Below are positions 10,918 through 60,237 of a stretch of DNA of 64,000 nt, one piece after another. The stretch comes from Bacteroidota bacterium. Its GTDB lineage: Bacteria; Bacteroidota; Bacteroidia; Chitinophagales; Chitinophagaceae. Every line of letters begins with the position of its first letter. Position 1 is the stretch's first letter. Made by a program: the position numbers and the translations under genes. The notes beneath the pieces were generated by a model, which searched no databases, was not told where the DNA came from, and was given only the letters and a program-made list of their open reading frames with translations. The stretch is taken from NCBI GenBank assembly GCA_016868585.1, contig VGGR01000001.1, forward strand, positions 186,001 through 250,000. Reading direction: 5' to 3'.

Positions 10918-13900
10918 ATGAGAAAATTCGCATCACTGTTCACCATGTTAATGCTAACTGCAGCATTGGCATTTGGTCAGGCTCGTACGATCACAGGTAC
11001 AGTAGTGGATGAAAATGGGGTTGCCATACCAGGTGCCTCAGTCCAATTGAAAGGGGCCCGTACTGGGGTTGCTGCTGACAACACAGGCACATTTCGGTTG
11101 CAGGCTAATACCGGAAATGTTTTGGTAGTGTCAGGAGCTGGTTTAGAGACTACTGAATTTACAGTTGGATCTGACAATTCCGTTCGTATTCAAGCAAAAC
11201 GCATTGTAGCTGCTGGAACCGAGGTTGTAGTATCAAGCGGTTATGGAATCCGCAAGTCTCTTCGTACCCTATCCAACAACGCTCAGGTTGTTACTTCAGA
11301 GCAGCTGAACACCATCCGCCAAACAAACCTGAATAATGCACTGGCCGGTAAGGTTTCAGGTATCCAGGTTAGAAGCCAGTCCTCTGCAAAATTGGGTAGC
11401 AACGGTAGTGTTCGTCTACGTGGTGAGTCTGGTTTCGGTGGTGGACAGGGTATCTTATACGTTGTTGACGGAACAATTCTTCCAAACCCCAATGACATCA
11501 ACTTAGATGATATTGAAGACGTAACCATCCTCCAAGGCCCTGCTGCTGCAGCCATTTTCGGTCCTCAGGGGGCAGGCGGCGCCATCGTAATGACTCTAAA
11601 AAGAGCTAAAAAAGGTCAAAAAGGAATTGGCGTTGATGTAAACCTTGGCGTTCAAAATGATAAAGTTTACATTCTTCCAAACTACCAAAACTCTTATGCA
11701 GGTGGTGCAGTTGGGGATTTGATGAAATACACCTGGCAGCCCGGCCAACCAGAATCCTGGAAGCTACTTAACAATAAATATTTTCATGACTATGCTGATG
11801 ATGCCAGCTGGGGTCCCCGCATGGTAGGGCAGGAATACATTCCTTGGTACTCTTGGTATGATGGTCACCGTTATTCTGGCACTACCGCTAAGCTATTACC
11901 TCAGCCAAATAATGCACGTGATTATTACAATACAGGTGTTATGCTGAACAACTCGGTTAGCATTTCAAAAGCTACTGAAAACACCAATATCCGTATGTCT
12001 TTTGGTAACATCGATCAAAAGGGTTTGATTCCGCTATCTTCCCTGAAAAAAAATACATTTACCACTATTGCTACGGTTGAAGTTACCGATCGCCTGACTG
12101 CTTCATTGAATTTCAACTATGTCACGCAGATCGTTCGTGGGGAGTTTGATGATGGCTATGCCAATCAAACAACGGGATCATTCAACCAATGGTTCCATCG
12201 TAATTTGGATATGGGTATCATGAAAGAGTTGAAGGATGTTCGTACGCCAAGTGGACTAATGGCTAGTTGGAATCACTTGAATCCGGCCGCCTATAATCCC
12301 TCTAATACGCGTCCTTTTTATGCTGGTAACTACTGGTATAACTTCTATACCTACTTTGATCACATGAAGCCAGTTACGCAGACTGATCGCTACTATGGTG
12401 ATATCTCACTCTCTTATAAAATAAGTGAGAGCCTAAGAATAAAAGGTACTTATCGCAAGCAAAACAACAATATATGGAGTGAGGAAAGAGTCACATCTGA
12501 TTTGCAACAAAGTGCCACGCAGTCTGGTTACATTGCCTCTTACTCTACCTCCACTTCTAACTCCAACAGGACTAATATGGAGTTGTTGATCTCCTACAAT
12601 AAAAAAATAGGTGAGTTTAATATTGGGGCGACTGGAGGTACCGATATCCTTCGCCAGCTTATCAAGGGTAACTCAGCCAACACAGTGAATGGACTGAACG
12701 TACCTAATCTTTTTACAATTGGTAACTCCAAAGACCAGCCCAGTGTTGGCAACTCCCGCAGTGACTATCGTTACAGCGCTGTTTATGCCACAGGTAATGT
12801 TACCTGGAGAAACTACTTAACTGCAGACTTCACCCTTCGTCAAGACTGGATGTCTGATTTGCCTCCTGCAAAGTCCTACATCGTATCTAAGTCTGCCGGT
12901 ATGTCCTTCATCTTTAGTGAACTCCTCAAATGGCAGCCACTAAGCTTCGGTAAATTCCGTGCCACAATTGGTGAAATCCCAACAGGTATCGGAACCTACT
13001 CATATCCTGGTTTTGCCTATGGAGTCGGTTCTGTGCAATGGAATGGCAACTTTTTGATGTCTACACCTGACCAGTTAGTAGATCCCAATATCCGTGGATC
13101 TGTCACACGTCAGCGTGAGGTTGGGATCGATTTACGATTCTTGAAGAACCGTGTTGGTGCCTCGGTCACTTATTGGACTGGAGATGACAAGGATTTCCCA
13201 ACCTCCATTCCCATTAATGGCACAAGCGGTTACACAAGTCTACGCACTAATGCTGGTTTGATTACCAAACGCGGATACAACATCCAAGCTATGGGGCGTC
13301 CTGTTTATGGAAAAAATCTAAAATGGGAGATAAACGCCACATGGGGTATCCTTGCTGAAAATAAAGTTGTCACCATATCTGATGATGGTAAGGATGATAC
13401 TCGTATCGCAATTGAGGGCCTATGGGGAAGCACTGGTCCTCGCATAGTGCACCAAGAAGGGCGTCAGTGGGGCCAGATTTATGGTAATGGCATCAAGCGC
13501 ATAAACGGTCAGCCGGTGCTCGACGCTAATGGCGCTTACGTAAACGATCCTGACGTGTTCTACGGAAGTGCTCTTCCAAAACATACTGGTGGATTCCAAA
13601 CACAAATTGAATACAAGGGCTTCATTTTAAATGCAAACGCTGACTGGGGAATTGGTGGTAAATTCTTTTCACTTTCCAATATGTGGGGTTCATTCTCTGG
13701 TTTGACTGCGCGCACAGCAGTATTGAACGACAAGGGTAACCCAATACGTGATTTAGTAGCCAACGGTGGTGGTGTTCACGTATTTGGAGTTGATGCCAAC
13801 GGAAACAAAGTTGATAAATATGTTGAGGCGCAGGATCATTTCCACGGGTTTTATTACAGCAAAACTTTTGATCCGTATGTCTATGATTTAACTTTTGTGA

Positions 13901-14118
13901 AACTTCGTGAGGTTTCCCTTGGTTACACGCTACCCATCAAAAAGTGGGGTGTTGGTTGGGCACAACGCGCTGTGCTATCTGTAGTTGCTCGTAATCCCCT
14001 CCTGATCTATGCGAAGACAAATGATTTTGATCCTTCTGAGATCTCCAACATAAGCGGTGAGGCTGGAAACATGCCCGGCACGCGAGGTCTTGGAGCCAAT
14101 CTTAAAATTAGCTTCTAA
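10918..14118 (+). CDS. SusC/RagA-family TonB-dependent outer-membrane transporter (module 1)
   Basis: 1066 aa. The signal peptide ends at ALAFGQ. A CarboxypepD_reg-like domain (ITGTVVDENGVAIPGASVQL) occupies about residues 23-95. The TonB plug follows, with LNNALAGKVSGIQVRS and the phylum-typical GILYVVDGTILPN. The rest is a 22-strand barrel ending in KISF. These proteins import oligosaccharides or peptides across the outer membrane using TonB energy, capped by a SusD lipoprotein. The partner begins 30 bp downstream. No STN/FecR sensing domain is present, so no anti-sigma coupling is expected. The substrate cannot be inferred. Confidence 0.95.
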   Translation: MRKFASLFTMLMLTAALAFGQARTITGTVVDENGVAIPGASVQLKGARTGVAADNTGTFRLQANTGNVLVVSGAGLETTEFTVGSDNSVRIQAKRIVAAGTEVVVSSGYGIRKSLRTLSNNAQVVTSEQLNTIRQTNLNNALAGKVSGIQVRSQSSAKLGSNGSVRLRGESGFGGGQGILYVVDGTILPNPNDINLDDIEDVTILQGPAAAAIFGPQGAGGAIVMTLKRAKKGQKGIGVDVNLGVQNDKVYILPNYQNSYAGGAVGDLMKYTWQPGQPESWKLLNNKYFHDYADDASWGPRMVGQEYIPWYSWYDGHRYSGTTAKLLPQPNNARDYYNTGVMLNNSVSISKATENTNIRMSFGNIDQKGLIPLSSLKKNTFTTIATVEVTDRLTASLNFNYVTQIVRGEFDDGYANQTTGSFNQWFHRNLDMGIMKELKDVRTPSGLMASWNHLNPAAYNPSNTRPFYAGNYWYNFYTYFDHMKPVTQTDRYYGDISLSYKISESLRIKGTYRKQNNNIWSEERVTSDLQQSATQSGYIASYSTSTSNSNRTNMELLISYNKKIGEFNIGATGGTDILRQLIKGNSANTVNGLNVPNLFTIGNSKDQPSVGNSRSDYRYSAVYATGNVTWRNYLTADFTLRQDWMSDLPPAKSYIVSKSAGMSFIFSELLKWQPLSFGKFRATIGEIPTGIGTYSYPGFAYGVGSVQWNGNFLMSTPDQLVDPNIRGSVTRQREVGIDLRFLKNRVGASVTYWTGDDKDFPTSIPINGTSGYTSLRTNAGLITKRGYNIQAMGRPVYGKNLKWEINATWGILAENKVVTISDDGKDDTRIAIEGLWGSTGPRIVHQEGRQWGQIYGNGIKRINGQPVLDANGAYVNDPDVFYGSALPKHTGGFQTQIEYKGFILNANADWGIGGKFFSLSNMWGSFSGLTARTAVLNDKGNPIRDLVANGGGVHVFGVDANGNKVDKYVEAQDHFHGFYYSKTFDPYVYDLTFVKLREVSLGYTLPIKKWGVGWAQRAVLSVVARNPLLIYAKTNDFDPSEISNISGEAGNMPGTRGLGANLKISF

Positions 14119-14148
14119 TAAATCCTGTTAAGCTTAAAAATAAAAGAT

Positions 14149-15567
14149 ATGATTACGAGAAACTTTCACATACAAAAAGTACTGGGTTTTACCCTTGCAT
14201 TAGTAATGTTGTTTACCAGTTGTAAAAGGTACTCCTCTGATTTTGGAGACACTAACCTTAACCCTGCTGCTACTACCACACCTATACTCTCAGCTTTGTT
14301 GACAAACGTAGAAGCTGGATTAGGCGGATATGGCACACAGATACGTGGCGGTTTGTATTGCCAGTATTTTTCTGAAACTCAGTATACCGACGTATCCCTT
14401 TACTCTATTCCCCAGCTTAGCTTCGAGGGGGAGTATTCTGGTTCATTGAATGATCTTCAGAACATCATCAACACCAATACCAGCAACAATATGACTCAGG
14501 TTGCTCGCATCCTAAAGGCGTACATCTTCAGCACCATTGCTGATCGTTGGGGCGATGTTCCTTACTCACAATCTTTGAAAGGGGATAAAACTCCTGCCTT
14601 TGATAAGCAAGAGAATATCTATCGTGGTTGCATGCTTGAGTTGACTCAGGCAGTTGCCGCTTTCAATTCTACTTCTGCTATCACGGGAGATATCATGTAT
14701 GGTGGTGATGTAGCTAAATGGAAAAAAATGGCTAACACGCTGCGCATGCGCTTAGCTATTCAGGTAAGCAAGCGTTTCCCGACAACAAGTGGCTGGGCTG
14801 CCGGTGCATTCCGCAGCGCCCTGGCTGATGCTGGTGGAAGCATCGCTGCAAATGCTGATAATTTTGAAGTAAAATATCCAGGGGGAAACTTCCAGTCTCC
14901 TTGGTATGCTCTTTATTTCACGCGTAGTGACTACGGTGAAAGCGCTCCAATGGTTGCTTTGATGGGCTCACTTGGCGATGGTCGTCAAGTTGCATTTGGA
15001 TCTTCAAACCTTGGCGTTCCTTATGGACGTGTACGTGGTTTTGTTGATCCCTGGTGTCAGGCTAATCCTACCTGGGCTCGCATCCTCTCTGCTTCTTATC
15101 GTCAACAAAACAGCTCTGTAGTGCTTGTTTCTGCTGCTGAAACACATCTTCTTCGTGCAGAAGCTGCTGATCGTGGCTGGACAACTGAAAATATGAATGC
15201 CCTATATCAGGCGGGTATTGGCGTTTCTTTTTCTCAATGGGGGTTGCCTGCGCCGGGTGCTGCTTACTATACGCAAAGTGGTGTTGCCTTGGCTAATGCT
15301 GCAGGTACTGCTGCTAATATCCGCAATATAGCGGTGCAGCAATACATTGCTTTTTACCCAAATGGGCTGCTTGGTTGGAGCGTTTGGAGAAGAACTGGTT
15401 TCCCTGTTTTGACGCCTGCCCCTGATGCCGTGAATACCTCACGTCAAATTCCCAGACGTTACACGTATGGCACATCTTCGTATGCAACAAATACAGCTGC
15501 TGTAACCGCTGCTGCCGCTGCTATCGGAGGTGATAACCAGGATACAAAAGTTTGGTGGGATCAGTAA
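14149..15567 (+). CDS. SusD/RagB-family nutrient-binding outer-membrane lipoprotein (module 1)
   Basis: 472 aa. The lipobox LFTSC places the acylated Cys at about residue 26. The helical SusD-like_2 type fold is suggested by the early NLNPAATTTPILSALL, by ILKAYIFSTIADRWGDVPYS (the TPR-like core common to the family) and by a C-terminal region with WSVWRRTGFP. It forms the lid of the SusC transporter and binds substrate at the cell surface. It lies 30 bp after SusC and 37 bp before a third module member. Substrate unknown. Confidence 0.92.
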   Translation: MITRNFHIQKVLGFTLALVMLFTSCKRYSSDFGDTNLNPAATTTPILSALLTNVEAGLGGYGTQIRGGLYCQYFSETQYTDVSLYSIPQLSFEGEYSGSLNDLQNIINTNTSNNMTQVARILKAYIFSTIADRWGDVPYSQSLKGDKTPAFDKQENIYRGCMLELTQAVAAFNSTSAITGDIMYGGDVAKWKKMANTLRMRLAIQVSKRFPTTSGWAAGAFRSALADAGGSIAANADNFEVKYPGGNFQSPWYALYFTRSDYGESAPMVALMGSLGDGRQVAFGSSNLGVPYGRVRGFVDPWCQANPTWARILSASYRQQNSSVVLVSAAETHLLRAEAADRGWTTENMNALYQAGIGVSFSQWGLPAPGAAYYTQSGVALANAAGTAANIRNIAVQQYIAFYPNGLLGWSVWRRTGFPVLTPAPDAVNTSRQIPRRYTYGTSSYATNTAAVTAAAAAIGGDNQDTKVWWDQ

Positions 15568-15604
15568 TCTAAACCACTAAAAGAAACTATTAAAAGAAAC
15601 AACT

Positions 15605-16636
15605 ATGAATATGAAATCATCAATACTCGTTTTCCTCTCCCTGGCTTTGGGATTCACTGCTTGTATCAAAAAGGAAGTGACTCCCTTGAAGGATGAAGGT
15701 TCAACCTTTGTTAAAGTAATGGGAGGAAGCAGCCCTGCTACGGTTCAAAGCAATGCTATTGATTTTGTGCCTACCCCACAAACCTTCACCGTCTGTGATG
15801 TTCGTAAGGATGCTGCAAATGCTGCCTCTTTGAACAGAGCCACCACTGTCACCATAAAAGACGATACCGCTGCCGTACGTGCTGCAAATCCTAACTACTT
15901 ACAGCTCCCAACCAATTTTTATACTTTGGTTGGCAGTGGAGTGACTAAGTCTGGTGGAATGGGTGGCAATTATACCGTTACATTTAGTCCCGGTGATTTT
16001 GTTAAGGAAATTCAGATTACTGTTCCAAACGCACAGTTGTTGAACCCAAGCAGACTCTACGGTTTAGGCTTTACCATCACCGAGGTATCAGCCGATAGTA
16101 AAATTTCATTTGAAAAATCAATAGTTGTTGAGATAGGAGCAAAAAATTCTTGGGATGGCGTTTATGAAATGTCGGGTACTTTCACTGATGTGGTATTCCC
16201 CGCGTTTGTCTACCTGGGAGCACAGCAATATTCCTTGATTACAATCAGTGCTACTCGCTGCATAGTTCGTAATGATGACCTTAACGGAGGTATCCCTGGG
16301 TATATTTTTAGTAATGCTGGTGCCGGAACATATTACGGTTCTTACGGGCTAGTAATTAGTTTTGATCCTGCTACAAACAAAATATCTGATCTCCATAATT
16401 ACTACGGTGATCCCAGCTTGCCTGCTACTCTCGGAGGAAATCCTGCCGCAGGAACAGGACCTCCACTTTATGCATCTGCTAACGGGCGTCGCGCAGTATT
16501 GGATCCCTCTGGGGTAAATGCTGTACAAAGCAATAAAGACATTGTAATCAAGCATTGGTTGGTACAGCCCAGTGTGGTGCCTAATGGTCCAAGAAGTTTT
16601 TTCAACGAAAGATGGAAATATTTGGGTCCTCGCTAA
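15605..16636 (+). CDS. SusCD-associated surface lipoprotein with DUF1735-like N-terminus
   Basis: 343 aa. The lipobox is GFTAC, with Cys at about residue 20. The first part resembles DUF1735 (BT_3987-like) domains that follow SusD in many loci: TVCDVRKDAANAASLNRATT, an NPNYLQLPTNFYTL segment, and a beta strand pattern that ends in a KSIVVEIG strand. The C-terminal half, rich in Gly, Tyr and Asp, is not recognised. A role as an accessory glycan- or ligand-binding lipoprotein is inferred from position. A strong terminator follows at 16660, ending the module. Confidence 0.75.
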   Translation: MNMKSSILVFLSLALGFTACIKKEVTPLKDEGSTFVKVMGGSSPATVQSNAIDFVPTPQTFTVCDVRKDAANAASLNRATTVTIKDDTAAVRAANPNYLQLPTNFYTLVGSGVTKSGGMGGNYTVTFSPGDFVKEIQITVPNAQLLNPSRLYGLGFTITEVSADSKISFEKSIVVEIGAKNSWDGVYEMSGTFTDVVFPAFVYLGAQQYSLITISATRCIVRNDDLNGGIPGYIFSNAGAGTYYGSYGLVISFDPATNKISDLHNYYGDPSLPATLGGNPAAGTGPPLYASANGRRAVLDPSGVNAVQSNKDIVIKHWLVQPSVVPNGPRSFFNERWKYLGPR

Positions 16637-49795: not shown

Positions 49796-49869
49796 GCCGG
49801 GGTAGCTCAGCTGGTTAGAGCATCGGATTCATAACCCGAAGGTCGGCAGTTCAAGTCTGCTCTCCGGTA
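49796..49869 (+). tRNA. tRNA-Met (CAT), elongator type
   Basis: 74 nt without an encoded CCA. The acceptor GCCGGGG pairs with CTCCGGT (with G1-U72 and G6-U67 wobbles), discriminator A. The D arm is GCTC...GAGC. The anticodon loop TTCATAA has CAT, in a stem TCGGA/CCCGA with an A31-C39 mismatch. The T arm is GGCAG-TTCAAGT-CTGCT. It lacks the C1-A72 mismatch and the three G-C pairs of initiator tRNA, so it is elongator Met; an Ile2 tRNA (lysidine) is less likely. Its 3' end is duplicated 3.4 kb downstream. Confidence 0.93.
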
Positions 49870-49962
49870 CTAAACAGGACTCTTCGGGATCTTCTTGAAG
49901 AGTCCTTCTTTTTTTATCTCCACAAGTATTTAATATTGTTGAAACTAACTCCACGTAACTAT
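49861..49962 (+). repeat. 102-bp direct repeat, proximal copy (tRNA-Met tail plus terminator)
   Basis: Pairs with 53264-53365 over 102 bp with no gap; 9 mismatches by eye. It starts at the last base of the T stem and covers the whole 3' acceptor strand, the discriminator base, the terminator and 47 bp beyond. Similarity ends abruptly on both sides. Confidence 0.9.
49877..49915 (+). terminator. terminator of tRNA-Met
   Basis: GGACTCTTC (49877-49885) pairs perfectly with GAAGAGTCC (49897-49905), with an 11-nt loop, followed by TTCTTTTTTT. The repeated copy at 53280 has lost one pair and has one G-U. Confidence 0.9.
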
Positions 49963-50161
49963 TCATTTTGGTGGATATTGGCAAATCAAGTGATGCCATA
50001 AAGCTCTCAAGCTCAATACTCCTCTCTATTACAACATGGGCATTGTATTATTTTAGTTGATGATTACCCGCGCATATTTATTCATCAGCAGGCAAATGCA
50101 AGATGTCCTTGTTCATTGCTGTTCCGTTGTAAATGAGAGAATTTAAATCCGGCAGTTGGAT

Positions 50162-51616
50162 TTATTTGTATACAATCGTTGCTGCAGTCCTAACTTCTGA
50201 TCCAATTCTTTTTTGAAGATCGTCGCCCAATTCATTTCTTGCTTTTTCGGCAATCAATTCAAGTATTTTTACAATTTCCGGAAATTCGTTTTGTACATCA
50301 TGGCGTTCCCCTGGATCTCTTCTCAAGTCATACAGGGCCCTTGGCATCATGATATTTTCTGGTGCTTGTCCAGGGAAACCGTCTTTTCCCGGAGATTGAT
50401 TCAAGTAAGATCTTGAAGGATGTTCAAAAACCAATTTCCAGTTATCTTTTCTCACTGCTTCCAATGCATTTTTTCTGTAATAATAATAGAATTCAGAGCG
50501 TGGTGACCTGGTCAGATCTCCTTGTAGCAATGGCCATAAACTGACTCCATCAATTTTTTTCTCCGGTAGTTTTAGATGGGTCAGTGCAGCAATGGTTGGC
50601 AATACATCAATGGTTGATGTAAGCTGGTTGACGACTTTTCCACCGGGTATCACTCCTTTCCACCACATGATGCAGGGCACACGGTGTCCACCCTCAAAGG
50701 AAGTGCCTTTGCCCTCTCGCAAACCACCTGTATTGCCTGCATGGTTTCCAAAATTGAACCAGGGACCATTATCGCTTGTGAAAATGATTAGCGTATTTTT
50801 TGTGAGTCCAAGTTGCTCAATTTTTCGGATGATTCTTCCCACATTGGCGTCTATCTCTTGAATAACATCACCATAGAGTCCCTGTTTGCTTTTGCCTTTG
50901 AAAGCTGCACTTGCATTGATGGGTACGTGTGGCATGGGGTGGGCGAGATAGACGAAGAAAGGATGTTGCTTGTTTTTTTCAATGAATGAAATTGTTTTAT
51001 CGGTCAGCGTTGAAGTGAGTTGCGCCTGTTGGTCCAATGTTGTGATGGTTGAAATCTTTTCATCTCCTTCGATCAATGGAAGGGGTGGATAGCCAGCCTT
51101 GTTTGTTCCCTGCTTGGCAGGTGTTCCATCGTACCAAACCGGCCACATATCATTGGAATAAGGAATGCCATAATATTCATCAAAGCCATGACTCTTGGGC
51201 AGGAATCCTTTCACATCACCCAAGTGCCATTTGCCAAATGCAGCTGTGGCATAATTTTTTTGTTTCAGCAATTCTGCAATGGTGGTTTCGTCCAGTGAGA
51301 GCCCCACGCCAGATTTCGGCCACAATGCTCCCGATATACCGATTCGATTGGCATAGCAGCCTGTCAGCAGAGATGCGCGGGATGCACTGCATACTGCTTG
51401 TGAAGTCAGGAAGTTGGTGAACCGCATGCCTTCTGCCGCCATTTTATCCAATACAGGGGTGTGTATATCTACAGCTCCATAGCAGGATAAATCACCGTAT
51501 CCCATATCGTCCATGTAAATGAGTATGATATTGGGACTCGCATTGTTTTGTGCTTTGATATTGGCAGTGTTTAAAAGAATCAAGCCTATCAGCAGAGAAA
51601 AAAAATTCTTCATCAT
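50162..51616 (-). CDS. exported sulfatase (arylsulfatase family)
   Basis: About 484 aa. The signal peptide ends near ANIKAQ. Metal ligands Asp36 and Asp37 lie in IYMDDMGYGD. The formylglycine site is Cys76 in CSASRASLLTG, a C-x-A-x-R variant of the type I sulfatase motif. GKWHLGDVKG and FTSDNGPW complete the active site. It needs a formylglycine-generating enzyme, not in the window. Secreted sulfatases of this type act on sulfated polysaccharides. Start at ATG 51616 (or 51613, one codon later); the longer frame to 51658 adds a non-signal stretch. It lies in the tRNA-flanked region. Confidence 0.9.
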   Translation of the reverse strand: MMKNFFSLLIGLILLNTANIKAQNNASPNIILIYMDDMGYGDLSCYGAVDIHTPVLDKMAAEGMRFTNFLTSQAVCSASRASLLTGCYANRIGISGALWPKSGVGLSLDETTIAELLKQKNYATAAFGKWHLGDVKGFLPKSHGFDEYYGIPYSNDMWPVWYDGTPAKQGTNKAGYPPLPLIEGDEKISTITTLDQQAQLTSTLTDKTISFIEKNKQHPFFVYLAHPMPHVPINASAAFKGKSKQGLYGDVIQEIDANVGRIIRKIEQLGLTKNTLIIFTSDNGPWFNFGNHAGNTGGLREGKGTSFEGGHRVPCIMWWKGVIPGGKVVNQLTSTIDVLPTIAALTHLKLPEKKIDGVSLWPLLQGDLTRSPRSEFYYYYRKNALEAVRKDNWKLVFEHPSRSYLNQSPGKDGFPGQAPENIMMPRALYDLRRDPGERHDVQNEFPEIVKILELIAEKARNELGDDLQKRIGSEVRTAATIVYK

Positions 51617-51639
51617 GAATAGTTCAAATTTTATTTGTT

Positions 51640-51798
51640 TTATTCGATCAGATCCCACAGGTTTCCATAAAAATCTTTGAAAACGGTCACCTTTCCATAT
51701 GATTCCTGTTGAACCGGACGCATGAATTCAACTCCTTTGCTTCTGTAAGCATCATAATCTCTCATGATATCATCTGAATAGATGTCCTTTTTGTGAAT
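51640..51798 (-). pseudogene. C-terminal remnant of a VOC (glyoxalase-like) family gene
   Basis: A 52-codon open stretch without a proper start, directly upstream of the sulfatase on the same strand. Its translation carries the C-terminal half of a VOC repeat: YSDDIMRDYDAYRSKGVEFM, then SYGKVTVFKDFYGNLWDLIE and stop. Full VOC proteins have about 120-150 residues; the N-terminal two thirds are missing. An internal ATG would give only 41 aa. The best reading is a gene broken by insertion or deletion in this accessory region. Confidence 0.75.
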
Positions 51799-51883
51799 TT
51801 ACGTAAAATACTTTTTGGCTTATCAGTCACATACATTGAACAATACTTTGAAAAGGTTGTTTAAATTTATAAAAATTTATCCC

Positions 51884-52150
51884 ATGGAAGAAATGATCCC
51901 CAATGAAGACTTTCCAAAAGCTGCTGCCAGCCAACCCTGTTGTGTAAACGTCGAAGCTGGAAAGGCGTATGCATGGTGTACATGTGGACTCAGTGAGAAG
52001 CAACCTTTTTGTGATGGGGGGCATAAAAAAATTGAGGGCATGCCTTATAAGAGTTTAAGATTTGAAGCAAGCGAGGACAAAGAAGTCTGGTTGTGTCAGT
52101 GCAAGAAGACCAAGAATCCTCCTTATTGCGACGGCAGTCACAATCATTGA
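51884..52150 (+). CDS. CDGSH iron-sulfur protein, two motifs
   Basis: About 88 aa. Two CDGSH-type [2Fe-2S] motifs: CTCGLSEKQPFCDGGH at about residues 32-47 and CQCKKTKNPPYCDGSH at about 71-86 (C-x-C-x9-C-x3-H). Such small two-motif proteins occur in many bacteria; they are redox or iron-sulfur transfer proteins of unclear role. The start at ATG 51884 is preferred over a TTG at 51815 in the same frame, which would add 23 residues absent from the family. It lies in the tRNA-flanked region. Confidence 0.85.
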   Translation: MEEMIPNEDFPKAAASQPCCVNVEAGKAYAWCTCGLSEKQPFCDGGHKKIEGMPYKSLRFEASEDKEVWLCQCKKTKNPPYCDGSHNH

Positions 52151-52332
52151 TCTTCAAAGACGATTCCCCATTTCGTGATCCAGGCCTTGGTGGTTCCAAC
52201 AAAGCGATCGATGTTGGTAGCCAAAGCTAACCAAAGATTTGAAAGCAAATCACAACGATCGCACTTACCCACAGCAAAAAGGATAGGGTGTCTGAAATAT
52301 GGGACAGGGTCACTCTCATTGTAGGTAGTTTT
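52144..52332 (-). other. possible gene remnant, 62-codon open stretch without a start codon
   Basis: Reads through 62 codons between two stops with natural-looking composition (for example LSNLWLALATNIDRFVGTTK). No ATG in frame, and its end overlaps the convergent CDGSH gene by 7 bp. I recognise no family. It could be the tail of a broken gene or chance. Confidence 0.25.
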
Positions 52333-52383
52333 TTATTAGTTGGTTATTATGCGTTAAAAGGTGAGGCGATCAACCTGAATGAG

Positions 52384-52391
52384 TAATTTTG
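52384..52391 (+). promoter_or_regulatory. -7 box of the sterol-desaturase-type gene
   Basis: TAATTTTG, full match to TAnnTTTG, 4 nt before the ATG at 52396. Predicts a leaderless transcript. Upstream, at 52361-52363, GTG stands where TTG is expected (20 nt). Confidence 0.5.
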
Positions 52392-52395
52392 TACT

Positions 52396-53154
52396 ATGTC
52401 AGCACAGTTGGAACGTTATTTGTATTTAATTCTACAAGTAGGGAGCCGGTATTATGTAGTAGCAGGTATTGCCTTTTTATTTTTTTATATTCTTTTTCGC
52501 TCTCGAATTAAACATCGTAAAATTCAAGTCAAGTTTCCTTCGCATCGTGATTATTGGCGGGAGATCTTTTACTCGTCTTTTACAATTTTGTTATTTGCAC
52601 TGATTCCCTGTTTTTTAGTATTTAATCCTGCCGTTAGACCTTATACGCAGCTTTACACACAAATAGCTGAGCGGGGGTGGGGTTACTATTTTGCATTATT
52701 CCTCGTATTGTTTTTGATACATGATACTTATTTTTATTGGATGCACCGGCTGATGCATCATCCGGTTTTATTTCGTTGGTTTCATTTAGTACATCATCGC
52801 TCTACCAATCCTTCACCGTGGGCTGCCTATGCTTTTCATCCAGTAGAAGCATTCTTGGAGGTTGGCATATTTGCATTATTTCTTTTTTTATTTCCCATTC
52901 ATCGAACGCACCTGCTCCTGTTTTTTCTACTATCTATCCTCTATAATGTATACGGGCATTTAGGATGGGAGCTTTATCCAAAAGGCTTCAACCGGACTTG
53001 GGTTGGCCGTTGGGTAAACACCTCTGTGGCGCATAATCACCACCATAAATATTTTACGGGCAACTACGGGTTATATTTTCTTTTTTGGGATCGCTTGATG
53101 GGGACCCTTCGAACGGAGTACGATTCCTCTTTTGATGAGGTTACCAATCGGTAA
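52396..53154 (+). CDS. fatty acid hydroxylase / sterol desaturase family membrane protein
   Basis: 252 aa with about four membrane segments in the first 190 residues. The di-iron histidine clusters are all present: H109...H117-x3-H121-H122 (IHDTYFYWMHRLMHH), H130-x2-H133-H134 (FHLVHHRS) and a C-terminal HNHHHKYF. Family members hydroxylate or desaturate sterols, carotenoids or fatty acids; the substrate is unknown here. It has its own promoter box. It is the last intact gene of the tRNA-flanked region. Confidence 0.9.
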   Translation: MSAQLERYLYLILQVGSRYYVVAGIAFLFFYILFRSRIKHRKIQVKFPSHRDYWREIFYSSFTILLFALIPCFLVFNPAVRPYTQLYTQIAERGWGYYFALFLVLFLIHDTYFYWMHRLMHHPVLFRWFHLVHHRSTNPSPWAAYAFHPVEAFLEVGIFALFLFLFPIHRTHLLLFFLLSILYNVYGHLGWELYPKGFNRTWVGRWVNTSVAHNHHHKYFTGNYGLYFLFWDRLMGTLRTEYDSSFDEVTNR

Positions 53155-53184
53155 ATACCTTCCAATTATGTAATCTTGCAGTCT

Positions 53185-53301
53185 ATGAAGACTGCCACAC
53201 CGCTAACACCTGCACTGCGTCAACAGTATTTTGCTATTATCATTGGGTTAGCTATTCGTCCCATCCCCGGTACTAAACAGGACTTTTCGGGATTTTCTTG
53301 A
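53185..53301 (+). pseudogene. truncated gene start running into the distal tRNA-tail repeat
   Basis: ATG at 53185, 6 nt after a TAATCTTG box (53171-53178) typical of this genome's promoters. It codes 38 aa starting MKTATPLTPALRQQYF. From about codon 27 (53264) the frame is the repeat copy, not native coding sequence. The first residues vaguely recall MutS N-termini, but not convincingly. It looks like the first 26 codons of a gene cut off at the repeat boundary. Confidence 0.45.
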
Positions 53302-53365
53302 AGAGTACTTCTTTTTTTAGCTCCACAAGTATTTGATATTGTCAAAACTAACTCCAGGTAACTAT
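53264..53365 (+). repeat. 102-bp direct repeat, distal copy (displaced tRNA-Met tail)
   Basis: 93 of 102 positions match 49861-49962. It keeps the acceptor 3' strand (CCCCGGT plus A) and a decayed version of the terminator, but has no tRNA body before it. Confidence 0.9.
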
Positions 53366-53387
53366 CAAAAATATATAGTTATTGCGG

Positions 53388-53424
53388 TAGTGTTAATAGT
53401 GTGTGGAAAGATATCACTAGTGTT
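53388..53424 (+). promoter_or_regulatory. direct repeats upstream of SusC module 2
   Basis: TAGTGTT occurs at 53388-53394 and 53418-53424 (30 bp apart), with TAGTGTG at 53397-53403. The palindrome CACTAGTG (53415-53422) overlaps the last. The position, 50-85 bp before the SusC ATG, fits a regulator site; the regulator is unknown. Confidence 0.3.
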
Positions 53425-53472
53425 TATATTAATATCCCATTTTTTTCACTAAATTGAAAAAAACTAATCTGC

Positions 53473-56400
53473 ATGAGAAACAAAATTCTCCTAATTTTCT
53501 TTACGCTAGTTTCATCCATAGCCTATTCCCAAACAACTGTAAAAGGAAAAGTATCTGGAAAGGATGGTGTTCCTATCTCGGGTGCATCCATCAAGGTTGT
53601 AGGAAGCGCTGTTGGAGTTGCTACAGCCCCTGATGGCACATTTTCTTTGACTGTACAATCCCAAGACCAATCTTTGGAAATTTCTGCAGTTGGTTTTGCA
53701 AACCTAATTGTCAGAGCCGGGTCCAGTTTAGTTGACTTACGTCTTGACGCAGTTGTATCCGCTCTGCAAGAAGTTGTAGTCACCGCCCAAGGTATCACCC
53801 GTGAAAAGAAAGCTTTGGGTTACGCAGTTTCCACGTTAGCTGCAAGAGAGCTTCAGGATAGACCAATAGCTGATGTTGGTCGCTTGATACAAGGCAAAAT
53901 TCCTGGAGTGGCTGTAACCTCCACCTCGGGAGTTTCGGGTACAGGTACTAATATCATCATTCGTGGTTACTCCTCCCTTACCGGCTCAAACCAACCTCTG
54001 TTTGTTGTAGATGGCGTTCCCTATAATTCTAATACCAACCAACGCGGAGGTTTTACACAAGGAGGTCAGTCTGCCTCAAGCCGTTTTTTGGATCTTGATC
54101 CCAATGCAATTGAGAATGTAACGGTTTTGAAGGGGTTGGCAGCCACCGTTACTTATGGTGATCAAGGTCGAAATGGGGTGATTTTAGTCACTACCAAAAG
54201 CGGCTCAAAAAAATCAAAAAAAGCTGAGTTTCAAATAACGCAGTCTTATTTCACCAACACAGCGAATTTGCCAGAATATCAAAATGACTACGTTGGTGGT
54301 TTTCAACAAAATATTGGCTACTTTTTTAGCAATTGGGGACCCACCATCCAAGAGGCCCTTATATACCCTTCACAGAACACTAATGCCGCATTGACCAACC
54401 ACCCTTACGCATTTTTGAGCAATGCTGCCCTGCGCGCTGGTCAGGCCCCATATGTAGCATCACTTGGTCCATACAAAATGCAGGTTTTTCCCAACAACGT
54501 GAAAGACTTCTTCAGACAAGGCAACATTGTAAACACAAGTTTGAATATCTCTGGCGGTGGTGAAAACGCCAGCTACAACCTATCTGCTGGATATCTTGAT
54601 GAGCAGGGATATATACCTGAAAATGGTTTGAAAAAATTAAATCTAAGTCTTGGTCTAAATGCAAAGTTGAGTAACAAACTTTCTGTACAAAATTCATTCA
54701 ACTACTCCAACACAGATCAGTATTCTCCCCCTTTAAGTGGTGGGGGTGGTAATAACGCTTACGACTTTCCATCTGTGCTTGCTAATGTCATGTACACTCC
54801 CAGACAAGTGGATCTAATGGGATGGCCCTTCGCAGATCCCGCCTCAGGCGCCTCAGTGTATTTCCGTAGCGGTAATGATATACCCAACCCTCGGTGGGTG
54901 TTGCAAAATCTAAAGACAACTGGAGTTGTAAATCGCATCTTCTCTGCCACCAACTTCAATTACCAAGTTTCAAAGGATTTCTCTATTGCTTACAAGTTTG
55001 GGTTAGACACATATAGCGAATCTCAAGAGTATAAATTCAATCAAGGAGGTGTTCAATCTCCAACTGGATATTACAACACGTGGGAAATCACGAACACAAT
55101 TTTAGATAATTCTTTAATTTTTACTTACAACAAGTCAATTGGTAAAAAAATAAGGTTGAACGCCCAGTTAGGCGGAAACATGAGAAATGATAATTACAGA
55201 AACGTATTTAATACCAGCCTCAACCAATTGGCAAGGGATTTATTCCGGCATTCCAACTTTATTGACAACGTTTCATCAAACGCTACCCAGGAAGAAACCA
55301 GGATGGGGATTTTTGGTTCTGCCACTGTTGATTACGATAATTATGCTTTTATTACAGTTTCAGGAAGAAACGATTGGACCTCCACAGTGGAAAAAGAAAA
55401 CCGAAGGATTGTATATCCCTCCGCAAGCTTTTCATTTATCCCCACCTCTGCTTTTTCTGGCTTATCTAGTGATTTTCTCAACTATTTAAAGTTGAGAGCT
55501 GGCGTTGGTACATCTGCAGGTTTTCCCAGACCTTACCAAACCAGAAATGTGCTTGATCAAAGCGCTCGTGCCTGGTTGTTAGCTTCTGGGGCAGCTGTGC
55601 AAAGCCACGCTGTCAATAACACACTTGGTAATCCCAATCTTCGCCCTGAGCTGCACACTGAATATGAAATGGGTATCGAGGCAAGATTGTTCAATGGACT
55701 TTTTGACATAGACCTCTCTCTTTACCGCAGGGATACAAGAGACTTAATAACAAGTGCACCTCTCGATAATGCCACAGGCTATTCATCCACTACCATTAAC
55801 ATTGGTAAAATCAGAAATAGCGGTGTTGAATTTGCCCTAACCGGAAACATCATAAATAACAAAGATTTCCAGTGGTCAACTACCTTAAACTATAACCGAA
55901 ATGTTCCTCTTGTTGTTGACCTGGGTGGTACATTAAAAGAGGTTCAAATCACAGGATTTGGTGGAGCACTTGGCAATTACGCCATAGTAGGCAAGCCTTT
56001 CAATATGATAAAGGGTTCAGGATACAGAAGGGATGAGAAAACTGGCCAACATTTAATTGACGGTCTTGGGAACTTGCTATCCACTGCCACTGCTATAGAG
56101 CTGGGAGATCCCAACCCCGCTTTTCAAACTAACTTGACTAACAGAATAGGATATAAAGATTTTACTTTCGAGTTTATGCTTGCTTATCGTCATGGTGGGG
56201 CTCTTTACAGCAGTACCATCGGGGCTCTCATGGGAAGAGGTTTAACTACAGATACTCGTAAAGATGTTTATGACCGTGCTCAGACTTGGATTTTCTCTGG
56301 AATATACGCATCAAATGGCCAGACCAATACCACACAGATGACTGCTGCTGACGTTGGCTTTAACAACCTCTACTTCTTCGGGGATGAGGGCCGTATGTTC

Positions 56401-56658
56401 GATGGAACCACCATAAGATTACAAGAAGCCTCTATTTCTTATAATTTGCCTCAAAAAGCTATCTCAAAGCTTCCTTTCAAAGCATTATCGGTTGCAATCA
56501 CTGGCAACAATCTCTGGTACCGAGCCCCCAATACACCCAAGGGAGTAAATTTGGATACCGATAATTTGGGTCTTGGTGTAGGTAATGGCCTTGGCCTTGA
56601 GTTGTTGACAGGCCCTAGTGCCCGCAGAGTTGGTGGTACCCTTAAGATAACACTCTAA
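53473..56658 (+). CDS. SusC/RagA-family TonB-dependent outer-membrane transporter (module 2)
   Basis: 1061 aa. The signal peptide ends at IAYSQ. CarboxypepD_reg-like domain about residues 20-95 (VKGKVSGKDGVPISGASI), then plug motifs LIQGKIPGVAVTS and QPLFVVDGVPYNS. A 22-strand barrel ends in GTLKITL. No STN domain. Its SusD partner starts 44 bp downstream. The TonB-dependent import substrate is unknown; no carbohydrate-active enzyme is adjacent, although the sulfatase in the tRNA-flanked region lies 2 kb upstream on the opposite strand. Confidence 0.95.
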   Translation: MRNKILLIFFTLVSSIAYSQTTVKGKVSGKDGVPISGASIKVVGSAVGVATAPDGTFSLTVQSQDQSLEISAVGFANLIVRAGSSLVDLRLDAVVSALQEVVVTAQGITREKKALGYAVSTLAARELQDRPIADVGRLIQGKIPGVAVTSTSGVSGTGTNIIIRGYSSLTGSNQPLFVVDGVPYNSNTNQRGGFTQGGQSASSRFLDLDPNAIENVTVLKGLAATVTYGDQGRNGVILVTTKSGSKKSKKAEFQITQSYFTNTANLPEYQNDYVGGFQQNIGYFFSNWGPTIQEALIYPSQNTNAALTNHPYAFLSNAALRAGQAPYVASLGPYKMQVFPNNVKDFFRQGNIVNTSLNISGGGENASYNLSAGYLDEQGYIPENGLKKLNLSLGLNAKLSNKLSVQNSFNYSNTDQYSPPLSGGGGNNAYDFPSVLANVMYTPRQVDLMGWPFADPASGASVYFRSGNDIPNPRWVLQNLKTTGVVNRIFSATNFNYQVSKDFSIAYKFGLDTYSESQEYKFNQGGVQSPTGYYNTWEITNTILDNSLIFTYNKSIGKKIRLNAQLGGNMRNDNYRNVFNTSLNQLARDLFRHSNFIDNVSSNATQEETRMGIFGSATVDYDNYAFITVSGRNDWTSTVEKENRRIVYPSASFSFIPTSAFSGLSSDFLNYLKLRAGVGTSAGFPRPYQTRNVLDQSARAWLLASGAAVQSHAVNNTLGNPNLRPELHTEYEMGIEARLFNGLFDIDLSLYRRDTRDLITSAPLDNATGYSSTTINIGKIRNSGVEFALTGNIINNKDFQWSTTLNYNRNVPLVVDLGGTLKEVQITGFGGALGNYAIVGKPFNMIKGSGYRRDEKTGQHLIDGLGNLLSTATAIELGDPNPAFQTNLTNRIGYKDFTFEFMLAYRHGGALYSSTIGALMGRGLTTDTRKDVYDRAQTWIFSGIYASNGQTNTTQMTAADVGFNNLYFFGDEGRMFDGTTIRLQEASISYNLPQKAISKLPFKALSVAITGNNLWYRAPNTPKGVNLDTDNLGLGVGNGLGLELLTGPSARRVGGTLKITL

Positions 56659-56702
56659 ACTTAGTAGAATAAAATATTTAACACTAATTCAAATTTACCA
56701 AT

Positions 56703-58346
56703 ATGATAAGAAAGTTTAAAGGATTTGCTTTAGTTGTCTTGTTAAGTTTTTTTGGCTCATGTGAGCTAGACCTACTTGACAACCCCAACGCAGTAACAAC
56801 TAATAATGCCAATGTAAATTTTCTCCTCAACGCAATCACTACGGGATATGCAGGCAATTTCAATTCTTTCAGTGATCCAGGCATGCGTCTCACTAGAATG
56901 CTAAATCAGTTTGCCGCTATTTATGACAATGCAAATTCACCAAGCTCATCAGATGGGAGGTGGAGTAGCTCTTACTCTGGCCTGCTGGCTGATATTTCTG
57001 TAACCATACCAATTGCAGAAAAAAGTAGGCTTTTTGTGCATGCAGGAATTGCAAGAGTAATTCGCGCTCAGGTGTTGCTTAATTTGGTTGATTATTTTGG
57101 AGATGTTCCTCTTAAGGAGGCGCTCGACCCCTCTAACTTTAATCCAAAAGTTGATAAAGGAGTCGATGTATACTTTGCGGCGTTAGCTGACCTCAACACG
57201 GCTATTGCAAATTTTAGCACTACCTCTCTTGCTGCCGCCTCTTCCGATCTTTACTTTGCCGGTAATGCTGAAAGCTGGATTCGTACTGCCAACTCTTTAA
57301 AGCTTAAATATTTTCTCAACAGAAGATTAATAGATGCCGCCGGCTCAAGGGATTCCATTAATGCATTAATCACACAAAACAGAATGATTTCCTCCTCTGC
57401 TCAAAATTTTGTTTTTCGTTTTGGATCAAACTTATCAAACCCTGATACCCGACATCCTAGATACGGTGGCCAGTATGGTCCAACTGGAGGGGGAGATTAT
57501 CAGTCCAATTCTTATATGGCTCACCTTTTTGATGGAGGGCGAGGTTTTCAAGACCCCCGAATTCGCTATTACTTCTACAGACAAACTACCAGAAATACCA
57601 CTGATGTAAATGAGTTGAGGTGCATCACTAATCCTAAGCCAGCTCATTACGGCCCTGATGATGTTTATTGTGTCCCAACTACCGCCGGGTATTGGGGTCG
57701 TGATCACCTGAGCAATGAGGGTATACCGCCGGACGGCTTGAAGAGAACTGCTTGGGGTTTGTACCCTGCGGGCGGTAGTTATGACAACAACGCTGGTGTG
57801 GGAGTTTCTTTGGGGGCTGGTGCCGGTGGTGCAGGTATTCATCCAATCATGATGCGCTCATTTATTAATTTCATGTTAGCTGAAAGCTCCCTTACCTTGG
57901 GTACTACAGGCAATCCAAGAGTCTTGCTGCAGACGGCCATGCAAAATTCATTTGATGATGTACGTGCCTATGCCCTCTCGACACCTGAAGCTTCAAAGAT
58001 TACCGCCTTTGAAACAGCAAATAACTATAACTGGTCCTCTGAGGTTACCGCCTACATTAATTACATATTAGGTCAGTTTGATGCCGCCTCCAACACAGGA
58101 AAGCTGGCAATACTTGCTCGTGAATACTGGGTTGCTCTTCGTGGAAACGGTATAGAGTCATACAATTTGTACCGTCGCACTGGACAACCTGCTCAACAGC
58201 CCGCTCTTGAGCCTGCTCCCGGACCTTTTATTAGGTCACTTTATTATCCTTTGTCCTACATTAATCGTAATAGTAATGCCAAGCAAAAAGCAAATGTAGA
58301 AGTACAGGTCTTTTGGGATAATAATCCCCCGGGATACATTAAGTAA
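56703..58346 (+). CDS. SusD/RagB-family outer-membrane lipoprotein (module 2)
   Basis: 547 aa, longer than the module 1 SusD (472). The lipobox SFFGSC puts the acylated Cys at about residue 20. NPNAVTTNNANVNFLLNAI and LLNLVDYFGDVPLKEAL are the SusD-like_2 core; the C-terminal AREYWVALRGNGIESYNLYR matches the family's last helix region. It caps the SusC barrel and binds substrate. It is 24 bp before the last gene of the module. Confidence 0.92.
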   Translation: MIRKFKGFALVVLLSFFGSCELDLLDNPNAVTTNNANVNFLLNAITTGYAGNFNSFSDPGMRLTRMLNQFAAIYDNANSPSSSDGRWSSSYSGLLADISVTIPIAEKSRLFVHAGIARVIRAQVLLNLVDYFGDVPLKEALDPSNFNPKVDKGVDVYFAALADLNTAIANFSTTSLAAASSDLYFAGNAESWIRTANSLKLKYFLNRRLIDAAGSRDSINALITQNRMISSSAQNFVFRFGSNLSNPDTRHPRYGGQYGPTGGGDYQSNSYMAHLFDGGRGFQDPRIRYYFYRQTTRNTTDVNELRCITNPKPAHYGPDDVYCVPTTAGYWGRDHLSNEGIPPDGLKRTAWGLYPAGGSYDNNAGVGVSLGAGAGGAGIHPIMMRSFINFMLAESSLTLGTTGNPRVLLQTAMQNSFDDVRAYALSTPEASKITAFETANNYNWSSEVTAYINYILGQFDAASNTGKLAILAREYWVALRGNGIESYNLYRRTGQPAQQPALEPAPGPFIRSLYYPLSYINRNSNAKQKANVEVQVFWDNNPPGYIK

Positions 58347-58370
58347 ATTTAAAATCGAAAAAATACTAAT

Positions 58371-58937
58371 ATGAAAAAAATAGTTAATGGTGCCCTTTTT
58401 TTATTGGTTCTACTCTTCAGTTCTTGCGAAACTGAAATGATTGAACCAATCGACCAATTTAATCTTCAGCAGGGAGGATACATGAGAACTGTAACCCCGT
58501 TCCCCATCCCCATCTTCACTGTTAGCAAGGCAAGTATGGGTACCACCCAAATGGAACAAGTTTTAGAGGCCGTAACACCAAATAGCGGAGCAAATTTTGA
58601 TAGCTACGAAATGGTTATTCGATTTCTTGATAACACTCCCGCCAATGGCAATAACTCAAAGCCAGATGCACCACTCAGAACACTTAGGTCTACTGATTTT
58701 ACCAAGGATGCAGTTACCGGATATCCGCGCTTCCGGTTAATAGTTACTGGTAGCGAGATGTTAGCTGCCTCAGGTCTTACCTTAACCCAAACTAGTTCTG
58801 GAGATCGATTTGAAGTACGTGCCAAAATGAAGCTAAAGGACGGGTCTGTTTTTGATGCAAATAACACGAGTGTCAATATTACTGGGGGTGCTTTCTATTC
58901 CTCACCGTTCTTTTACAGAGTCAATGTTGCTAATTAA
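58371..58937 (+). CDS. small surface lipoprotein of module 2, unknown family
   Basis: 188 aa. The lipobox LFSSC places Cys at about residue 20. The rest is predicted beta-rich and reads like a single Ig-like or DUF-type domain (VLEAVTPNSGANFDSYEMVI, then RLIVTGSEML). No recognised motif. By position it is the counterpart of the module 1 DUF1735 lipoprotein but shorter and not obviously homologous. A clear terminator follows. Confidence 0.75.
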   Translation: MKKIVNGALFLLVLLFSSCETEMIEPIDQFNLQQGGYMRTVTPFPIPIFTVSKASMGTTQMEQVLEAVTPNSGANFDSYEMVIRFLDNTPANGNNSKPDAPLRTLRSTDFTKDAVTGYPRFRLIVTGSEMLAASGLTLTQTSSGDRFEVRAKMKLKDGSVFDANNTSVNITGGAFYSSPFFYRVNVAN

Positions 58938-59004: not shown

Positions 59005-59349
59005 AAATGCCTATTTTTAAAAAATATGATAAAATTTTTAGATGCCATTGATTGTATTTTTTCATCATGCTGAGGGGTACAAATCTCTACAATCTGTATT
59101 TTTGACACTATCAATAGCAATCAGCAGGTTTACCTTTTTTAGTTTTTTGGTTTGGTTCCCCCTGTTTACATTACTAATTTAAAATCAAATACCTAGATAA
59201 AGAATTATCAAAACCTTGATTTTTTGAATGGCCGTAGGAGGGGCTTATTTCTTTCAGCTAAAAAAATTGTCTTGAGCTATGAAAATTGTAACTTTCTGAT
59301 AACTTAATTCAAATATGTCTCAAAGTCAATCAAAATGTAACCTCTCCGT
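59005..59349 (+). other. A/T-rich intergenic region with a possible promoter
   Basis: 345 bp with no recognisable gene. The only signal is TTG (59268-59270), 18 nt, TAACTTTC (59289-59296), a possible promoter for the membrane protein at 59350. An ATG at 59315 lies 19 nt after it but in another frame from that protein. Confidence 0.4.
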
Positions 59350-60237
59350 TTGGGTCCACAAGGGACATCAATTTTTACTCTCTGGCCAAATCAAAAGCAG
59401 AATGAGCGTTTGGTACTTTCTCTTGCCATTCTTAGTTACATAATTCATTTGCTCATAATTGCCTTTGTTAAAGCTGGAGTTATTCAAACCAATTTAGGAC
59501 TCTTCAATAGCCCCATATCCGCTATTTACACACCCTTTTCCTTTATACTTGTTTATGAGGTCTACCTATTACTCTTTTATTTGCCAAAATCTACTACTTT
59601 TTACATAGGAAAGCAATATGAAATTATCACATTGATTGTAATTAGGAGAATCTTTAAAGATTTGGGAGACTTGCAATTGGTTCCTGACTGGTTTCAAAAT
59701 AAGAAAGATCTCCAATTTACTTTCGATGTGGTATCTGCTTTAATCTTATTTTATTTAATCTATGTGTTTTATCATAGAATTATCAAGCGGCAAGTTGCTG
59801 CCATCGTTGATGTAAGCCCTGTTTCAGAGGCAGCCGGCCGATTTATTTTCCTTAAAAAAGCAATTTCCCTTTTTTTATTACCTGTACTGCTTGGCTTGGC
59901 TTGTTATTCTTTAGGTAATTGGATAAATCTACTTTTTGCTAATCAATTTTCCGCTTTTGCTGCTCTTGCAAATGTAAATACAGTATTCTTCGATGATTTT
60001 TTTACTATACTTATTATTGTGGATGTGCTACTTTTACTTGCCTCTTTTTATTACTCTGATCAATTTCACATCATAATACGAAATTCTGGGTTTGTATTAT
60101 CCACTATTTTAATAAAACTATCATTTTCTGTTATTGGACCCGTAAACAATATTCTAGTGGTGAGCTCTGTTTTATTTGGGCTTCTCATTTTATATATAAC
60201 GCAACTTTACGAGAAATCGCTTGGCACTGTACGCTAG
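59350..60237 (+). CDS. polytopic membrane protein, unknown family, non-ATG start
   Basis: 295 aa with about eight predicted membrane segments, first at about residues 22-42 and last at about 267-285. No ATG occurs in frame at the beginning or anywhere later in the protein: it has no methionine codon after the start. TTG at 59350 is the most plausible start. An ATG at 59315 is in another frame and would need one extra base to join, so a frameshift near the N-terminus is possible. Family unknown. Its stop directly abuts the convergent ggt. Confidence 0.6.
   Translation: MGPQGTSIFTLWPNQKQNERLVLSLAILSYIIHLLIIAFVKAGVIQTNLGLFNSPISAIYTPFSFILVYEVYLLLFYLPKSTTFYIGKQYEIITLIVIRRIFKDLGDLQLVPDWFQNKKDLQFTFDVVSALILFYLIYVFYHRIIKRQVAAIVDVSPVSEAAGRFIFLKKAISLFLLPVLLGLACYSLGNWINLLFANQFSAFAALANVNTVFFDDFFTILIIVDVLLLLASFYYSDQFHIIIRNSGFVLSTILIKLSFSVIGPVNNILVVSSVLFGLLILYITQLYEKSLGTVR

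Follow-up and report, generated by a model that had tools for sequence, protein, structure and literature searches.

The locus considered here raises the question of how 3.4 kb of accessory genes came to lie between a tRNA-Met gene and a SusC gene, flanked by two copies of one short repeat. It is found in a 64-kb stretch of DNA (the window) from a freshwater bacterium of the Chitinophagaceae, whose own genome, G000, comprises 1.77 Mb in 20 contigs. The tRNA-Met(CAT) gene at 49796–49870 is the sole tRNA detected in the window by ARAGORN. The segment that follows it, 49871–53273, is very probably a cassette that carries no recombinase and was inserted site-specifically at the 3′ end of the tRNA, in front of an older insert. 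The most likely enzyme belongs to a family of serine recombinases. The coordinates of all features are collected in Table 1.

The two repeat copies were compared with one another and with the rest of the genome. They match at 93 of 102 bases (91%) with nine mismatches and no gap, at a spacing of 3403, and their flanks are unlike each other. These figures and the sharp edges are those of the original prediction, which had been made from the window sequence. It had also placed the start of the repeat nine bases before the end of the tRNA; the overlap is real, but it amounts to 10 bases by the end that ARAGORN assigns. A displaced tRNA fragment of 10 bases, one of them mismatched, is located at 53264–53273. 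The core common to the tRNA end and the right end of the segment is the seven bases CCGGTAC (49864–49870 at the tRNA). A search of G000 returned copy 2 at E = 1.5e-35 together with five tRNA bodies. No third copy was found in this genome, a separate search also gave two copies, and none further was present in 101.8 kb of chromosome.

The insertion is supported by comparison with the related genome G025, in which the 3.4 kb are absent. The order there is the tRNA, one tail, and the same SusC and SusD genes. From tRNA offset 66 onward, G025 is colinear with the window sequence that starts at copy 2, at 92.5% over 8.8 kb. The upstream and downstream contigs of G025 share an overlap of 127 bases, all identical, at the tRNA, which joins them as one locus, as is typical of short-read assemblies. 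Insertion at a tRNA 3′ end had been proposed for the window, and a relative with a single tRNA tail directly before this SusC gene had been named as its proof; G025 is such a relative. A terminator repeat dispersed over unrelated loci had been named as one outcome that would overturn the proposal; under such a reading the copy next to the tRNA would involve no insertion. The repeat does contain a terminator-like hairpin (in copy 1 the stem, read from the sequence, is 49877–49885/49897–49905, with a T run next to it). With two copies only in the genome, a relative that lacks the segment, and a motif in the flank of copy 2 that marks joints elsewhere, a dispersed repeat is scarcely credible, and the arrangement in G025 refutes it.

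The motif in the flank of copy 2 is the right-end half-site of the segment. It was searched for as a degenerate pattern, with up to three mismatches allowed, in 42 genomes of the genus. Twelve sites were obtained in eight genomes, and the reversed control gave matches in none of the 42. At a lower threshold there were 13 sites, which were used for the C-terminus reading and the codon positions described below. The 12 sites that remain after the degenerate G029 site is dropped were used for the hairpins and the D[LF]xxF peptide. The joints of inserts fall at the same tRNA bases in several genomes and share this one conserved right end. The sequence after the right ends varies by site, and classes of it recur. 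The 5338-bp contig G016:C91 has three right ends in tandem, and G005:C35 has two; no recombinase open reading frame (ORF) is among the ORFs listed for these blocks. The tandem right ends indicate that the relatives carry arrays, in which a tRNA is followed by repeated units of left end, cargo and right end, and then by the backbone. The original prediction had pictured a single site-specific element. The locus reads instead as a cassette array with a conserved right end, and the recombinase family connected with it is a serine family, unlike the tyrosine enzymes usual at tRNA genes.

That family was recognized from the left end, where the 102-bp tail codes in antisense for the C-terminus of a protein that is preserved as a 151-residue fragment in G029 and as a 131-residue ORF in G013, as seen in the tail alignment. 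The repeat is hence not the tail of the tRNA-Met gene itself, as had been supposed, but the antisense 3′ end of a serine recombinase gene, which forms the left end of the element. What had been taken for one duplicated tail is a pair of stacked left ends. Full-length relatives of the protein contain Resolvase and Recombinase domains in all three cases scanned (G062, G253, and G386) and are large serine recombinases. The one from G253 is itself located at a tRNA-Met gene. In the integrated state the recombinase frame continues into the tRNA in antisense, for example as VPESRLELPTFGL.

The association of the recombinase with tRNA genes was then evaluated by comparison of genomes. A match to the recombinase is present in 21 of the 42 genus genomes. 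An opposite-strand tRNA was detected by ARAGORN at the 3′ end of the gene in 18 of 25 loci, within ~35 bp in 17 and at 193 bp in one; these 25 are the loci left of the 30 returned once five tail copies at tRNA-Met are set apart. In the whole order, matches are present in 48 of 396 genomes, and an opposite-strand tRNA lies within ~65 bp in 23 of the 24 loci scanned from the 30 returned. Eight of these tRNAs are Met, and the others are Leu, Arg, Pro, Ser, Glu, and Phe. Overall, tRNAs for Met, Leu, Arg, Pro, Ser, Phe, Glu, and Gln are abutted by the recombinase family, which apparently targets tRNA genes. No recombinase match was obtained in the viral contigs or in the plasmids. Repeats of the tRNA end were seen at two of 12 other loci of the family (three of the 12 have no tRNA), so right ends at other tRNAs are mostly not located by such a repeat.

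Three further loci of the family are recorded. On G000:C4 (L171), from 19439 to the end, another recombinase relative with 173 open codons is cut off by the contig end at a tRNA-Leu(CAG). At the tRNA-Leu(CAA) of G027 (L166), a recombinase of the same family is present, and ~30 nt of the tRNA end recur 11.5 kb downstream, which is a more classical island layout. Locus L206 of G253 is an element of ~20 kb in which the intact tRNA-Met recombinase adjoins a MerR-type regulator; the element also carries a run of metabolic ORFs, with roles assigned by eye.

The right ends carry codons for the C-terminus of this recombinase. Read antisense, they give VPGIGRLSNFLIDDLLDFTD-stop and variants of it, and 10 of the 13 sites reach the stop after 20 or 21 residues. 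The right end of the window reads VPGMGRIANPMIIAKYC-stop, which is divergent, stops earlier, and only partly resembles the others; as DNA, its motif has no mismatch. The third codon position is the least conserved, with a mean of 8.2 of 13 vs 9.3 and 9.6 for the other two. Since the motif used in the search itself dictates GQLSN, the peptide test was placed outside the motif. The peptide D[LF]xxF occurs at a fixed place in six of 12 genus sites and 13 of 18 sites from the family, or 19 of 30, compared with eight of 20000 same-base shuffles. The intact tRNA-Met recombinase of G253 has a right end ~19.9 kb away. When this right end and the left end were joined by script, a single open frame of 578 amino acids was obtained, ending in GQLSNRVIIDLLKFLHFKNNLI.

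An island whose tyrosine integrase has since disappeared would also account for the tRNA target; the serine recombinase relics would then stem from other elements sharing the hot spot. The enzymes usual at tRNA genes are tyrosine integrases according to the available text of PMC4383910, most cassette left ends are not a recombinase tail, and the tRNA copy at the tRNA-Leu(CAA) locus of G027 is of the classic kind. This origin is nevertheless improbable. The absence of an integrase from the segment had been noted originally, and no Phage_integrase match is found nearby; G000 contains three (C1:375392, C14:8139, and C14:29613), the nearest being 139 kb from the tRNA. Phage_integrase matches were obtained in 17 genomes, and the tRNA-Met gene was located in 14 of them (all except G006, G023, and G064). 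In those 14, no Phage_integrase match lies within 130 kb on the tRNA-Met contig, where the contigs are short and many end near the tRNA. The recombinase codons in the right ends and a shared core of 4–8 bases also speak against it.

The arrangement of blocks behind the same tRNA-Met was compared among the relatives, in which quite different sequences follow the tRNA. The tRNA and a tail copy of G013 enclose another 3.4-kb block, which consists mainly of a gene of 1000 residues with PKD domains. The sequence directly 3′ of the tRNA in G029 is that found after the second tail in G013 (83% over 407). G005 and G022 have a distal block in common (93%), closed in each by the same degenerate right end, and their tRNA-proximal parts differ. 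In G033 the tRNA is followed immediately by this distal block (72% over 558, from offset 66). Such positions are as predicted if insertion beside the tRNA pushes older blocks outward.

Homologous or illegitimate recombination, by tail duplication or by exchange of arrays between strains, could have produced a similar picture with no site-specific enzyme at present, and the array would then be a fossil. The cargo edges cut genes at random places, the repeat copies differ by nine bases, and the recombinase is reduced to relics in the genus, all of which would fit such a history. It is unlikely in view of the joints at identical tRNA bases and the single conserved right end. In addition, copy 1 is closer to the tails of G029 and G022 (95–97% including the tRNA) than to copy 2 (91%), which argues against a simple local duplication.

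Some additional observations concern the same tRNA-Met. In G013 (L046, 9988–13560) the second tail is at tRNA offset 3469, which gives the same spacing of 3403 bp as in the window with unrelated cargo; the identity of the spacings is probably a coincidence. In G034 (L049 and L152), the first 121 bases beyond the tRNA and beyond a right end on a different contig agree at 120 positions; this reflects either a direct repeat like that of the window or a mixture of occupied and empty sites in the population. Partial, degenerate second copies of tRNA-Met are found shortly after the tRNA in three relatives with larger genomes, at L045 (G027), L053 (G008), and L056 (G021).

For the site-specific insertion of cassettes, the following course is proposed. 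Each cassette would begin with a left end, usually containing a terminator hairpin, after the last bases of the tRNA and would close with a conserved right-end half-site whose final bases repeat them. Joining of the right end to the left end would give a circle that recombines with the end of the tRNA, and the older cassettes would be displaced outward by every new arrival. The enzyme would be a large serine recombinase of the tRNA-3′-end family. Its gene, once integrated, ends at the tRNA; in the circle, the right-end half-site would supply the last ~20 codons. Since the left end in the window is a relic of a recombinase gene, the window cassette may have lost its recombinase or may have been moved by one acting in trans. 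No intact recombinase ORF was found between the repeat copies from the ORFs and Pfam, and the earlier suggestion of an element either decayed or mobilized in trans holds up.

Right ends were also searched for beyond the genus. The pattern TTAGATAAYYGTCC(N8)GTAC, with one mismatch, gave 21 sites in 13 of 394 genomes of the family. Those of G229 and G208 are chance-like by their peptides. G253 has seven right-end sites, three of them in tandem on C17. At the tRNA-Met of G217, two sites are 4.66 kb apart, and the sequence adjacent to the tRNA recurs after the second. A right end is associated with the tRNA-Arg of G597 (5.2 kb), and G386 has a pair of sites separated by 920 bp, which lie ~15 kb behind a tRNA-Leu accompanied by an intact recombinase. 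Six of 14 family loci are tied to an upstream tRNA on the same strand (L208, L234, L235, and L238 directly, L230 via L206, and L233 via L264). The shared core follows the local tRNA: CCGGTAC or TCCGGTAC for Met, TCGCTAC or CGCTAC for the Met of G217, GAGTAC for the Leu of G253, and GACTAC for Arg. Its length ranges from 4 to 8 bases. From these comparisons, other Chitinophagaceae appear to carry such arrays at several tRNAs. The exact right-end pattern was present in seven stretches of the genome_contigs collection, which may omit records near the genome of the window; three are labelled Chitinophagaceae, three Bacteroidota/Bacteroidetes, and one Sphingomonadales. No match was obtained in the viral contigs.

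A terminator-like hairpin follows within 75 nt of the right end at 21 of 30 sites vs 89 of 2000 positions drawn at random from the same loci. A plausible reason is that an insert would otherwise separate the tRNA from its terminator. On a wider and quite tentative view, the tRNA genes of Chitinophagaceae might be the entry point of a gene-capture system based on serine recombinases. Acquisition of the half-site would make any DNA a cassette, the left ends would be free and would usually bring a terminator for the tRNA, and the exchange of the C-terminus for tRNA-antisense codons could lock the integration without a directionality factor.

Several results weigh against a serine recombinase acting on cassettes at these sites. 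Among nine delimited blocks (G000, G005, G013, G016, and G022; one block common to G005 and G022 is counted twice), two have a recombinase tail as the left end. The other left ends often have a palindrome like TGTTATTTT..AAAATAACA. A serine integrase is expected to need both half-sites; with so few recombinase left ends, either the left ends are read loosely or the blocks are of other origin. Close relatives of the tRNA-Met recombinase are represented in the 42 genus genomes by fragments only, with none intact, and the nearest intact relatives are 56–60% identical and belong to another genus. The G029 fragment alone matched no Pfam family. No circle or excision was seen. For the older insert no right end was recognized, since no motif scoring at least 19 of 27 is found downstream. 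In the family-wide search the reversed control gave 11 matches in 11 genomes, and single sites need caution; eight of the 14 family loci have no tRNA tie within the DNA fetched. At the tRNA-Glu of G253 and the tRNA-Leu of G386, the shared core is only GTAC. The genomes compared are mostly draft metagenome-assembled genomes, which often break at tRNA-Met.

The mode of working appears most like that of the staphylococcal and Enterococcus cassette chromosomes (SCC and ECC), and the layout most like that of additive islands with recurring tRNA ends. SCC members without a recombinase are known. The likeness to SCC and ECC covers the large serine recombinase family, the 3′ end of a conserved gene as the target, direct repeats, stacking, recombinase-less members, and variable cargo. 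In contrast to these, the target here is a tRNA rather than rlmH, there is one recombinase gene (as far as the loci show) rather than a ccrA/ccrB pair, the attachment site is inside the recombinase gene, the blocks range from ~1 kb upward, and the hosts belong to another phylum. The cassettes were not filed as SCC, because the target is not rlmH. ECC is described in the available text of PMC6222049 as having large serine recombinases, a conserved gene whose 3′ region is kept intact, direct-repeat att sites, several attR per locus, and variable cargo.

Additive islands are described in the available portion of PMC10872708 at the tRNA-Lys of freshwater Candidatus Methylopumilus, with repeated insertions at one tRNA and copies of the tRNA end between small variable blocks, as here. 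The repeated part there is the final 20 bp of the tRNA, whereas here 4–8 bases recur together with a separate conserved half-site, and no serine recombinase is linked to those islands in that portion. It also covers tycheposons, cargo elements anchored at tRNAs (tRNA-Met among them) in streamlined aquatic bacteria. Those described have a tyrosine recombinase, and none was found near the tRNA of the window by Phage_integrase search. Islands of the Islander type similarly regenerate the tRNA and leave a tRNA-end fragment at the far joint, but they are defined by tyrosine integrases, and the nearest match in G000 is at the distance given above. With no tyrosine integrase found, the element was not filed under the tRNA-island families. 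Integrons share an array that grows from a fixed entry point, cassettes that end in a recombination site, and toxin-antitoxin and defence-like cargo; here the entry point is a tRNA, and no tyrosine integrase (IntI) is near the array.

A serine recombinase family at tRNA genes is undescribed in the available text of PMC4383910, PMC6222049, PMC12884075, PMC10872708, and PMC11476347; much subscription literature lies outside this search, and reports may exist. Islands at tRNAs are ascribed by default to tyrosine integrases, and here a serine family is found at eight tRNA types. The right end allows blocks without a recombinase to be delimited (sulfatase, transport, toxin-antitoxin, and candidate defence genes), which would be missed by programs that need an integrase on board. 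The right ends of the cassettes also constitute a set of directly testable attachment sites.

Table 1. Features of the tRNA-Met locus, in window positions
Feature	Position	Strand	Basis or remark
Recombinase C-terminus relic, running into the tRNA in antisense	49832..49978	-	84% identity with G029 fragment residues 103-151; no internal stop
tRNA-Met(CAT), insertion target	49796..49870	+	ARAGORN
Repeat copy 1, probable cassette left end, with terminator-like hairpin	49861..49962	+	Self-comparison
Probable inserted cassette, 3403 bp	49871..53273	.	Absent in G025; crossover anywhere within CCGGTAC
Sulfatase, GTG-started ORF	50162..51658	-	Pfam Sulfatase 8e-60; true start may lie further in
CDGSH iron-sulfur protein ORF	51815..52150	+	Pfam zf-CDGSH 4e-19; true start probably downstream
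Chromosomal fragment	52315..53236	+	88% to G025:C9, other locus
Right-end half-site TTAGCTATTCGTCCCATCCCCGGTAC	53248..53273	+	0 mismatches to TTAGMTAWTYGTCCYATCCCCGGTAC
Second recombinase C-terminus relic	53262..53369	-	75% to residues 107-142 of the G029 fragment
Repeat copy 2, probable left end of the older insert	53264..53365	+	Self-comparison
Older insert	53274..58937	+	ORFs, Pfam for SusC/SusD
Backbone resumes	59313..60222	+	71% by blastn against L051 788-1698 (915 aligned columns)

The cargo of the window cassette is accessory, as had been predicted. Copies of the CDGSH gene are found in relatives at other loci (73–76%). The 922-bp chromosomal fragment contains the end of a transporter-like gene, a whole fatty-acid hydroxylase gene at 52396–53154 (Pfam FA_hydroxylase 2e-29), and the start of an aminotransferase-like gene (ATG at 53185), in which the fragment stops ~17 codons in. 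Its cut gene ends account for two of the broken genes that had been reported. The names GNAT, transporter, and aminotransferase were assigned by eye from the translations, with no family search. At the matching place on C16 of G000, a peptidase-like gene is followed directly by an aminotransferase-like gene, and the two intervening genes are absent. No second hydroxylase was found in G000 by DNA search, in which seven of 22 candidates were scored. The identity to G025:C9 and the gap on C16 indicate, by comparison, that the hydroxylase gene was captured from a chromosome of the same genus, perhaps that of the host itself. In the gap between the sulfatase and CDGSH genes, on the minus strand at 51640–51815, a truncated end of a glyoxalase/VOC-like gene was noticed by eye.

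The cargo of other cassettes includes HepT-like and nucleotidyltransferase proteins, a Fic protein, an AAA_14/DUF4143 ATPase, and a DUF6973 protein. PADLOC models match six of 10 cargo proteins (PifA/QatA-like, PDC-M21A and B, PDC-S01, PDC-S09, and SoFic); these are family names, and function is only predicted. At L235 of G217, 12221–15675, a KAP NTPase and a PDC-M21A/B pair lie between two right ends as candidate defence genes.

The older insert consists of SusC (53473–56658), SusD (56703–58346), and a 188-residue lipoprotein-like ORF (58371–58937). The backbone that resumes after it is common to G033 and partly to G005 and G022. One backbone ORF, intact in G025 (307 residues), is frameshifted in the window at 59315–59410 by one base fewer in an A run, through either a mutation or an assembly error.

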